A DNA stretch of 34,113 nucleotides from Nevskia soli (GTDB lineage Bacteria > Acidobacteriota > Terriglobia > Bryobacterales > Bryobacteraceae). Location: the NCBI RefSeq assembly GCF_903970205.1, contig NZ_CAJCHS010000045.1, forward strand, positions 1-34,113. The letters run 5' to 3'. The notes beneath the pieces are model-generated. The model did not search any database. It worked only from the letters and a program-made list of their open reading frames with translations, and had not been told where the DNA came from. Positions 4,883 to 26,034 of this stretch are shown in pieces (position 1 is the first letter of the stretch; every line of letters starts with the position of its first letter). Position numbers and translations under genes: made by a program.

Positions 4883-4992
4883 CGGTAAAAGTTTAACGCG
4901 AACGCGCAGTGATTCGGCTTCTTGCGTGCGCCTATGTAATTTGGACTACCCGTTCGTTTCACAACCAAAGATGAAAAGGGTCCGTACAGCCC

Positions 4993-5020
4993 CACTCCGA
5001 GCCCGACCGAAAGGGAGGGT
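4993..5020 (+). repeat. Intergenic repeat, type A, copy 2
   Basis: This is identical over 28 bases to 25-52 and in the same orientation. It lies between the start of gatB and the end of the HNH gene, which are transcribed in the same direction. It is followed at once by a run of inverted repeats (5038-5096), so the whole spacer may act as one structured element. Confidence 0.8.
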
Positions 5021-5037
5021 ATCCTGGCGGAACGGCG

Positions 5038-5096
5038 TATGTGGGCGACATTTTCGAGGGAGCCTCTTGGCTCCGCACATAGCCGGGGAGTCCGGC
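5038..5096. repeat. Tandem hairpins in the HNH-gatB spacer
   Basis: GGAGCC at 5059-5064 pairs with GGCTCC at 5069-5074 around a TCTT loop. An outer TATGTG (5038-5043) matches CACATA (5076-5081). A second hairpin pairs GCCGG (5082-5086) with CCGGC (5092-5096). On the minus strand the first hairpin lies downstream of the HNH stop, but no U-tract follows it, so it is not a classical intrinsic terminator. It may be a processing or transcription-end structure, or part of the repeat element beside it. Confidence 0.55.
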
Positions 5097-5139
5097 GATA
5101 AGTAACTACTGGCGCCGCGTAAGCGAGTTTGGTCCGAAC

Positions 5140-6475: not shown

Positions 6476-6828
6476 CGGGGCCGGCGGGGAAGCCGTGACG
6501 CGATTAACCTGGAAGGCGCACCCCAGCGAACTCGCTCTTGCGGCTGAAATGGACGGGCCTGGTCATTGTTTCGAACACCTCGAAATCACCAAATCGTGCC
6601 AGTCTTACGTAAACCTTGAGTGTATTGCTCAAGAGCGAGCTTGTCAATTCTGCCGGCATTCTACGGACCACCGGCCTCGGGCTTTAGCGGCCGTTGTCAA
6701 ACCGGGACGACCGAAAGGGCCGAGGAAAACGGCTGGAATGTCGCGCTCCGGTTTCATTTCCGCTAGACTGTCTTTATAGCGCGAAGAGGCTCGATAGATT
6801 ACGAGCCCGGAGGGCCGACAAACTCAAG
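6476..6828. other. Divergent intergenic region, comF / bactofilin
   Basis: This 353-base spacer separates two divergent genes, so it must hold promoters for both; I cannot place either with confidence. It contains CGACCGAAAGGG at 6708-6719, a 12-base match to the core of the type A repeats. GGAGGG at 6809-6814 is a possible ribosome-binding site for the bactofilin, but it lies about 14 bases from the ATG. The extra codons of in-frame extensions upstream of 6829 show no recognisable homology. Confidence 0.5.
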
Positions 6829-7413
6829 ATGCCCATGTGGAACAAACGCCAGGAAGAGCCCACACCAGCGCCCCGGCCCGCTACGCCGGCAGCCAGCCCG
6901 GTAGCCGAGGTGAAGAAGGAGAGTACCGCCGTGTCGACGACGCCATTTCGTACCCCAGAACATAACAATCCAAGCAGTGGTAACCAGGCCAGTATCGGTA
7001 AAGCGGTAAAGATCAACGGCCAGATATTTTCTAAAGAAGACCTATATATTGACGGCGACGTGGAAGGGACGGTGGAATTGCACGAGAATAAGCTGACCAT
7101 CGGCCCGAATGGCCGGGTGCAGGCAGCCGTGCGGGCGCGGGAAGTGGTCGTGCTCGGAGCCATCCAGGGTAATGTCGAAGCGGCCGAGCGCATCGATATC
7201 CGGAAAGAAGCAAAGCTGGTGGGAGACATCAAGACCGCTCGGATTGTGATTGAGGACGGCGCCTATTTCAAGGGCAGCATTGACATCGTGAAGCATGATG
7301 CAAAGGTCGTCGCCGCGGCTCCCGCGCCGGTGCCCTCCGCGCCCGCGCCGCGCCCAGCGACGGTTCCGGGCGCCACCGTGTCCGCTGTCGCGTCCGGGGA
7401 CGCCAAGCGTTAA
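6829..7413 (+). CDS. Bactofilin family cytoskeletal protein
   Basis: This 194-residue protein has the bactofilin (DUF583) right-handed beta-helix core at about residues 56-153. It shows the regular short strands typical of the family: IGKAVKINGQIFSKEDLYID, GDVEGTVEL, GRVQAAVRAREVVVLG, GNVEAAERIDIRKEAKLVGD. Disordered Pro/Ala-rich tails flank the core (PTPAPRPATPAAS at the start, APAPVPSAPAPRPA at the end), as is usual. Bactofilins polymerise without nucleotide into filaments, often at the membrane. They position cell-wall, chromosome-segregation or appendage machinery, so a scaffold role is likely here; the partner is unknown. The start is ATG 6829 or the next ATG two codons later. An open frame continues upstream but looks non-conserved. 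No M23 peptidase gene, a frequent neighbour, is present. Confidence 0.93.
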   Translation: MPMWNKRQEEPTPAPRPATPAASPVAEVKKESTAVSTTPFRTPEHNNPSSGNQASIGKAVKINGQIFSKEDLYIDGDVEGTVELHENKLTIGPNGRVQAAVRAREVVVLGAIQGNVEAAERIDIRKEAKLVGDIKTARIVIEDGAYFKGSIDIVKHDAKVVAAAPAPVPSAPAPRPATVPGATVSAVASGDAKR

Positions 7414-7454
7414 GGCAACCTTCGAGGGCTATATCGCATCGTTGTTGTGAGTTA

Positions 7455-7559
7455 CTTGTTTCAGACCCGCTCGTTTCAGGCAAGCTTGTTTCAGTCAAGC
7501 TTGTTTCGGGAATGCTTGTTTCAGGCAAGCTTGTTTCGGGCAAGCTTGTTTCGGGAAAG
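7455..7559. repeat. Seven-unit 15-bp tandem array
   Basis: Seven consecutive 15-base units fill this interval exactly. They start at 7455, 7470, 7485, 7500, 7515, 7530 and 7545. The consensus is CTTGTTTC(A/G)GGCAAG, with 1-5 changes per unit; the first unit is the most diverged. The array ends 19 bases before the methyltransferase TTG start and begins 41 bases after the bactofilin stop. Because 15 is a multiple of three, the reverse strand stays open as repeated pentapeptides, but that frame overlaps real genes and has no independent support. It is a minisatellite-type locus that could vary in copy number between strains. Confidence 0.92.
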
Positions 7560-7578
7560 CTGAGGAAGACGCTCCACT

Positions 7579-8247
7579 TTGCTTCCGGACCGTTTTAAGG
7601 GCCTTTTCAACGAGAGCTCGAATCCAAGACCGACCCGCCGCGGCTCCGCTCAAGAGGAAAAGGAAACGCATATCGAGCGCCAGAGCCGTGGCCTCGATCA
7701 ATTTTTTTTCAACATTCGGGGCCTCTCCGGGTTGTCGTTGCTGGACCTCGGCGGGGCGGTGCAGGAGAACATCGAGTTCGTCACGAATCTTGGACACCGG
7801 GTGACGACGCAGGCGTTTTTGCAGACGCTCGACCAGACGTTCGGGCGCGACGCGGTCAACGAACATTCGCATCCGGACGGAATCGAGAGTTTCCTCAATC
7901 AGAATCTCGCTTTTCCGGACGCTACTTTTGACGGTGTACTGCTCTGGGATACTTTGCAGTACATCTCTCCTGCGCTCCTGGCCGCAACCATCAGCGAGCT
8001 ATACCGGGTTACGCGGCCGGGGAGCTACATGCTCGCGTTCTTCAATTCAGACGATAAAACTCAGGTTTCGCCGAATACGAAGTTTCGGATCGTGGACGCC
8101 AATATGATTCGTCTGATGCAGAAGGGGACGCGCAGGCAGGCGCAGTCTTTCAATAACCGCAACCTCGAAAAACTCTTTAGTAAGTTCGATTCCGTCAAGT
8201 TCTTCCTGACACGCGAAAGCTTGCGCGAAGTGATCATCCGCCGGTAG
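7579..8247 (+). CDS. SAM-dependent methyltransferase, class I-like
   Basis: This 222-residue protein has a Rossmann-type methyltransferase pattern. Motif I is LSLLDLGGA (residues 52-60). It is followed by a motif resembling FDGVLLWDTLQYI (about 117-129), then the helix ATISELYRVTRPGSYMLAFF that ends many class I enzymes' post-motif region. The usual acidic residue at the end of strand 2 is not obvious, so SAM binding is likely but not certain. A TTG start is used; GAGGAAG (7562-7568) lies about 10 bases upstream. The 15-bp tandem array sits directly before this start. Its last 14 bases overlap the 3' end of the convergent PEP-CTERM gene. The substrate is unknown. Confidence 0.72.
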   Translation: MLPDRFKGLFNESSNPRPTRRGSAQEEKETHIERQSRGLDQFFFNIRGLSGLSLLDLGGAVQENIEFVTNLGHRVTTQAFLQTLDQTFGRDAVNEHSHPDGIESFLNQNLAFPDATFDGVLLWDTLQYISPALLAATISELYRVTRPGSYMLAFFNSDDKTQVSPNTKFRIVDANMIRLMQKGTRRQAQSFNNRNLEKLFSKFDSVKFFLTRESLREVIIRR

Positions 8248-9109
8248 CGGCCGGGCGCTTCTGCGATAACCGGCGGAAGCGCTTAAACAACGCCCGAACG
8301 CCCATCAAACCCAGCCCGAGACTCAGTAGCACCCAGGTTGCGGGTTCCGGAATGGCCGCGACCGGCCGCGGTGACGGCCCCGAGACGCGCGGGAGCGGCT
8401 TGTTGATCTCCGGAGATTCCTTCGGTATCGGGAACAATACTCCCGGCGGGGCGGTTGTGGGCGGAAAAAGCGAGGTTTCGGTGACAACCGGCGGCTGTAC
8501 CGGCGGGTGCTCGATCGGTCGCGTAGGGACCAGCGGGGCGACTGGCAGCGGCGGAGTCACTCCTGGAAGTCTCACCGGTTGACCTGGCGCCGGCGGTAAG
8601 AGCGGCGTCTCAGGGACGATGATGGGTTTACGGGGCGGGATCTCGGTCGTCAGGCCAGGCGGCTCAAAACGGCGAACCGGCTTCTGGGGCGTATCGGACA
8701 GCCGGTTGCCGCAGCGACCGCGAACGAGGTTGACGCCATCCGTGAGGACGGATTCGCCGGCGTGAAGCAGCAGCGGCCGGTTCGTCCAGTAAATCGCGTT
8801 GTCAATACGATAGGACGCAAACATCCATCGATCCGCCGGCATCGTGATAGCTAAGAGGCGGTCGCCAATACCCTGGTAGTGAGCCGTCAGCTCCGGATCG
8901 GCGCGGCGATGGGCCTGGAACTCGGCCTCACCCACAACACCGCCGGGGATGAGCGAGTAGGGATAAATCCGGCGCGGGGCAATGGACGACTGCGTTAGTT
9001 TCGCTCGAAGTTCCTGACGCCGAACATCGGCATCGCGCCTTGCGCACCCGCACAGCAGGATCGCCAGGGCGACGGCCCACCGGGCAGTTAAACCAAGATA
9101 TTTGTTCAC
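8234..9109 (-). CDS. PEP-CTERM protein with lipobox-like signal and Pro-rich linker
   Basis: The 291-residue product starts with a hydrophobic signal (ARWAVALAILLCGCARR). Cys22 within LCGC fits a lipoprotein cleavage site. The C-terminus carries IPEPATWVLLSLGLGLMGV followed by the basic cluster KRFRR: a PEP motif at 254-256, a membrane segment and arginines. That is the PEP-CTERM sorting signal normally processed by exosortase. About 11 residues trail beyond the basic cluster, slightly more than usual. The N-terminal ~135 residues form a small domain I do not recognise. Residues ~138-253 are a proline-rich linker suited to spanning envelope material. The start is GTG with no clear Shine-Dalgarno sequence. 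No exosortase gene is present in the window. Dual anchoring is an inference. Confidence 0.8.
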   Translation of the reverse strand: MNKYLGLTARWAVALAILLCGCARRDADVRRQELRAKLTQSSIAPRRIYPYSLIPGGVVGEAEFQAHRRADPELTAHYQGIGDRLLAITMPADRWMFASYRIDNAIYWTNRPLLLHAGESVLTDGVNLVRGRCGNRLSDTPQKPVRRFEPPGLTTEIPPRKPIIVPETPLLPPAPGQPVRLPGVTPPLPVAPLVPTRPIEHPPVQPPVVTETSLFPPTTAPPGVLFPIPKESPEINKPLPRVSGPSPRPVAAIPEPATWVLLSLGLGLMGVRALFKRFRRLSQKRPAATGG

Positions 9110-25924: not shown

Positions 25925-25973
25925 GGCTAACCTTCCGTGGTAATAACCGCTCCGTCACCGTCGCGGCTCTGTA
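25925..25973 (-). repeat. Intergenic repeat, type B, copy 1
   Basis: This copy matches 33492-33540 at about 45 of 49 bases, and 38 of 39 over 25935-25973. The reverse complement carries the family core GAGCCGCGACGGTGACGG and then AGCGGTTATTACCACGG. It lies 18 bases after the giant protein's stop codon. It is the left half of the nested palindrome described at 25935-26034. Confidence 0.85.
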
Positions 25974-26034
25974 CCTTAGTGAGTCTACAGAGCCGCGCGC
26001 GTCAGCAAGCGGTGTTTTTCGACTACTGCCACGG
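25935..26034. repeat. Nested palindrome between convergent genes
   Basis: Three pairs of arms nest symmetrically: CCGTGG (25935-25940) with CCACGG (26029-26034), ACCGCT (25946-25951) with AGCGGT (26008-26013), and CGCGGCTCTGTA (25962-25973) with TACAGAGCCGCG (25986-25997) around a 12-base loop. The right half is a diverged inverted copy of the type B repeat. It fills the gap between the convergent giant-protein and FadF-like genes, so it may terminate transcription from both sides. Confidence 0.8.

Follow-up and report, generated by a model that had tools for sequence, protein, structure and literature searches.

A seven-unit 15-bp tandem array, apparently private to one Bryobacterales species, lies between a bactofilin gene and a methyltransferase-like gene

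The intergenic minisatellites or VNTR loci of bacteria consist of short tandem units that carry substitutions, occupy intergenic DNA and are private to a lineage. Contingency repeats, which also lie beside genes, bring about phase variation through changes in spacer length. Numerous short repeats, most of them under 50-100 nt, are described in Solibacter Ellin6076 (PMC3174227). Here we analyse a tandem array in the window, by which we mean the whole stretch of 34,113 nucleotides under study, and compare it with these systems. The works that we searched contained no paper on the array or on the gene pair that encloses it, which does not prove absence from print. The array takes up most of a 165-nt gap between two genes of the plus strand, and the features of the region are the following:

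6694 to 7413, plus strand: bactofilin open reading frame, given from a TTG in the list of open reading frames (PF04519, E 6.3e-26, residues 101-196)
7414 to 7578, plus strand: intergenic gap of 165 nt, filled mostly by the array; the same-genus relative has 13 nt here
7447 to 7563, plus strand: short open frame of 38 codons, from GTG 7447 to TGA 7561-7563, read by hand and taken as a by-product
7455 to 7561, plus strand: seven units of 15 bp, followed by 2 bases of an eighth (Tandem Repeats Finder, repeat search, shuffles)
7562 to 7569, plus strand: purine-rich GAGGAAGA, candidate ribosome-binding site immediately after the array, read from the sequence
7579 to 8247, plus strand: methyltransferase-like gene with a TTG start (PF08241, E 1.1e-5)

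Tandem Repeats Finder gave the array a score of 137 at period 15 and of 158 at period 45, and among 300 dinucleotide-shuffled versions of the whole window none scored above 74, so the array is not a chance product and is confirmed as real, far above chance. With head-to-tail units inside the range of roughly 10-60 bp, and well above chance, it is a minisatellite. The units start at 7455, 7470, 7485, 7500, 7515, 7530 and 7545, with CT following at 7560-7561, and all are equal in length but not identical in sequence: units 1 to 7 differ from the consensus CTTGTTTCAGGCAAG at 3, 1, 1, 3, 0, 1 and 2 positions, respectively (11 of 105). The 45-bp period, with 91% matches, indicates that units 2-4 and 5-7 represent a duplicated block, and an A at position 12 is found only in the last unit of each of these three-unit blocks. 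The preliminary description, which had placed seven 15-bp units at 7455-7559 directly upstream of the methyltransferase-like gene, was correct in both the location and the units. An assembly artefact, which the draft state of the source genome (4.16 Mb in 455 contigs, 71% complete) would permit, is very improbable in our judgement, given that the array spans just 107 nt with distinguishable units, that both flanks are the expected genes and that the longest exact repeat within it is 20 nt, so that an assembler working with longer words can resolve it.

Of the two flanking genes, the bactofilin gene probably starts further in than the listed TTG. The last full unit is separated by 19 nt from the TTG at 7579, and GAGGAAGA, which adjoins the array on its downstream side, could from its sequence be a ribosome-binding site. 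Neither gene had a match in NCBIfam, and no solved structure was matched by sequence by the methyltransferase-like protein, whose best Pfam match spans residues 108-152 only. Classical methyltransferases have a glycine-rich motif I, at the place of which this protein reads DLGGAVQENI; a similar stretch occurs in most of the 34 aligned loci (own included), with departures in L028, L032 and L034, for example. It is possible that the protein is an atypical, or even inactive, methyltransferase accompanying bactofilin.

A bactofilin gene was found directly upstream of the methyltransferase-like gene, on the same strand, in all 33 related loci examined, which comprise those of 29 of 40 relatives and four from a named collection, and among which L007 and L012, on contigs of equal length, appear to be one record and L008-L010 may repeat genomes under other handles. 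The methyltransferase-like gene itself was matched in 41 of 41 genomes, own included, and of its four named relatives three are Bryobacterales and the fourth is an Acidobacteriia metagenome assembly. A single relative of the same genus was compared (73% protein identity); it shares the TTG start of the methyltransferase-like gene, and its gap is only 13 nt long (TAA-GGCACGCGCGGTC-TTG) and lacks the repeat. The conservation of the pair together with this short gap makes it most likely that the array separates two cistrons of a single transcript, with the bactofilin gene and the methyltransferase-like gene probably co-transcribed. The same-strand bactofilin gene, the constancy of the pair and the 13-nt gap had all been missed before. 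Both ends of the sister's gap are recognisable by eye in the window, as TAAGGCA... and ...CGCTCCACT-TTG, which gives the array, together with about 45 surrounding bases, the look of an addition. We infer that the array was gained in the lineage of the window and not lost in the sister; the alternative, a deletion in the sister, is possible because the comparison rests on just one same-genus relative.

Gap lengths in the other relatives vary and depend on the start codon that is assumed. None of the 33 related loci has a tandem array in the gap (score of at least 40, at least 2.5 copies), the arrays listed for them lying elsewhere in the loci. We also considered a seed of the array in the gaps of relatives and rejected it, as 2 of the 33 loci, L017 and L036, both distant, contain 12 consecutive bases that match the unit with up to 2 mismatches. 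The gap of L013, from G022, which is the next nearest genome by protein, holds CTCGTTTCGG, which by eye is like the unit at 9 of 10 positions and, although from a nearer relative, is shorter and falls below the 12-base seed test; it could be a remnant of the array or a chance likeness.

Beyond these loci, the DNA of 237 genomes of the family was searched with 181 bases of the locus, with at most 3 candidates scored per genome, and 2 of them gave a match: the own genome and G182, in which the match covers 45 bases at 80% (E 4.5e-4 for one genome) and corresponds to a short 15-bp repeat within long open frames. A 23-base two-unit pattern, allowing up to 3 mismatches, was found in 11 of the 237 genomes. 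One of these is the own genome; each of the other ten has a single match, with 3 mismatches, and the reversed control gave 6 matches. In 257 genomes of the order, a three-unit pattern gave 12 non-own matches in 9 genomes, compared with 10 in 6 for the reversed control. Ten of these 12 matches were inspected (the other two overlap one of them) and 9 of the 10 had a 15-bp array at the match, that of G182 among them, each enclosed by an open frame of 174 codons or more, which makes these arrays look coding. A family of GTTTC-core arrays in relatives was rejected on these grounds, 12 matches against 10 for the control and nine inspected arrays that look coding; within the order, short arrays with a 15-bp unit are not uncommon. 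No second such array was found in the 237 family genomes, among which the array appears to be private to one species. A phage, plasmid or viral-contig origin was also rejected, no match being found among phages, plasmids and viral contigs with the queries tried.

Within the own genome, a single unit was matched 7 times outside the array, as against 18 times for the reversed control, so the unit is not dispersed. This result bears on a second role proposed in the preliminary description, that of tandem binding sites, which we take as sites for a DNA- or RNA-binding protein and consider highly improbable. Such sites could be read into the consensus unit, an imperfect palindrome CTTG-N7-CAAG with 4-bp inverted arms, and into the first 8 bases, which are identical in 6 of the 7 units, but the unit does not recur at other loci as it does for iteron or operator arrays, and only units 3, 5 and 6 have intact arms, the other four (1, 2, 4 and 7) carrying uncompensated breaks. 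Moreover, 15 bp amount to about 1.43 helical turns, so that successive sites face different sides of the helix. The proposal thus finds no support.

The source genome also contains a separate dispersed hairpin, surveyed in 638 kb (60 contigs plus the window), whose arms are GC-rich (CCGCTCCGTCACCGTCGCGGCTC and GAGCCGCGCGCGTCAGCAAGCGG are examples) and whose loop measures about 20 nt in many copies. It is present in the window at 25947-26012, in L097 at 7923-8169, in L121 at 4989-5108 and in many other contigs; the scan was loose, and part of its 71 own-genome hits are not the element. A 23-base arm pattern, with up to 3 mismatches, has 98 matches in the whole own genome, 115 in G004, which belongs to another genus, and none in G001, which belongs to the same genus; overall, 13 of 25 genomes contain it, and across all 25 the reversed control has 0 matches. 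Such an abundant element with a patchy distribution resembles a mobile or REP-like family. An 18-bp minisatellite sits between the hairpin arms in L097 (7946-8142, 10.9 copies) and in L121 (5013-5079, 3.7 copies). The units of the two are alike and similar to the ordinary loop, so that each minisatellite may derive from it by expansion. The array could have arisen in the same manner, as an expanded loop of this abundant intergenic element, and its first unit does match the element edge TGTTTCAGAGCCGCG with 2 mismatches; even so, with loop expansions present in the same genome, we regard this origin as extremely improbable. No inverted repeat flanks the array (7300-7700), which is unrelated to the element by alignment and has neither its long inverted arms nor its many copies. 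The comparison of the gap with a library of 76 element pieces gave a score of 25. Of 300 segments of 165 bases drawn at random from the genome, the element itself being present in some, 68 reached or exceeded this score, and on this result the origin from the hairpin was rejected.

Folding was analysed at the level of the array and of the start region. The array alone is more stable than its dinucleotide shuffles (z -3.25, 0 of 200), but in context the value is -0.20, and of 500 arrays of permuted units 102 are at least as stable as the native one, showing no excess of structure over permuted units. With 0 Rfam matches at gathering score in the whole window in addition, a structured RNA was rejected. 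For the start region, the folding model predicts opening energies of 10.9, 13.6, 13.6, 14.0, 12.6, 14.2, 13.0 and 10.8 kcal/mol with 0 to 7 units, and 11.2 kcal/mol for the sister; predicted accessibility thus shows no trend with unit number (range 10.8-14.2 kcal/mol), and occlusion of the start by copy number was rejected. The native value lies about 1 sd below the mean of 200 shuffled arrays (12.9, sd 2.1). The suggestions that copy number tunes expression, or that the array acts as a structural control, are consequently left without support by the flat accessibility and, for the latter, by the permuted units.

A contingency-like element, in which slippage would alter the number of units and hence spacer length or ribosome traffic, with an effect on expression of the methyltransferase-like gene, is unlikely. 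The array does lie between the stop and the start of a conserved gene pair with its edge at the possible ribosome-binding site, all three plus frames through it are open, with the short frame ending 15 nt before the TTG, and the native seven units have the lowest opening energy, though zero units come to nearly the same value. Nevertheless, the units have diverged, and diverged repeat units usually go with low slippage; steps of 15 bp preserve the frame, the opening energies follow no trend and the array is found in one species only. More specifically, a translational spacer tuned by slippage, in which ribosomes coming from the bactofilin cistron would cross the stop-free repeat and its length would set the output of the methyltransferase-like gene, is a model that we consider decidedly unlikely.

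As for transcription signals, no sigma-70-like site was found on the plus strand in 6600-8400 (there are two on the minus strand), a weak negative because few are expected (0.5 on both strands) and other promoter types lie outside the scan. The same interval holds five terminator-like sites, compared with 2.5 (sd 1.5) expected on both strands. Three of the five are within the array, on the plus strand, at 7513-7541, and judging from these predicted sites there may be partial attenuation between the two genes.

The array can also be read as protein. All three plus frames, read by hand, are free of stops across the units, which a 15-base unit easily allows, and the 38-codon frame, which is in the same frame as both genes, changes its amino acid at every difference between units; we judge it a by-product. 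On the reverse strand, a frame of LPETS repeats is open over 7268-7543 and 4 of the 11 differences between units are silent in it (by hand). That the array is coding, in this reverse frame or in the plus frame, would agree with these silent differences and with the nine core-pattern 15-bp arrays of relatives that lie in long open frames, but the first start codon of the reverse frame falls within the array and the frame shares part of its length with the bactofilin gene, the differences alter every affected amino acid in the plus frame and the sister has no array, and we regard this reading as extremely improbable. The reverse-strand pentapeptide frame is best taken as a by-product, as was initially proposed.

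Taken together, the array is likely to be a private and probably neutral minisatellite that grew in the spacer of a probable two-gene transcript. Slippage or unequal recombination, including one duplication of a three-unit block, would have expanded it in a single Bryobacterales species, and the spacer that separates the bactofilin gene from the methyltransferase-like gene would thereby have increased from perhaps 13 nt, the length in the sister, to 165 nt. The array would probably be transcribed within the bactofilin-methyltransferase mRNA, with no detectable selected function and at most, if any, a looser translational coupling of the two cistrons. Against neutrality stand the stability of the isolated array, the three terminator-like sites inside it, its place beside a gene start, where changes in length could matter, and, as regards its privacy and gain, the CTCGTTTCGG of L013 and the possible deletion in the single same-genus relative compared. 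The array points to a way in which a narrow gap between cistrons can grow by about 150 nt, mostly repeat, while a conserved gene pair stays intact, and if the number of units did tune the second gene, it would offer a simple natural test of spacer length in coupled translation.

Regarding known systems, the array and the REP/REPIN-like hairpin elements (PMC8049555) are both repeated intergenic DNA, but the array is not dispersed and has no long arms, and the genome has a separate hairpin family. With contingency repeats it shares a position beside a start codon, and it differs from them in its diverged units, in a unit length that is a multiple of three, in having no nearby sigma-70-like site on the plus strand and in showing no predicted effect of copy number. 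It would be a VNTR locus if its copy number differed between strains, and with the intergenic minisatellites and VNTR loci it shares short substituted units, an intergenic place and privacy to a lineage.
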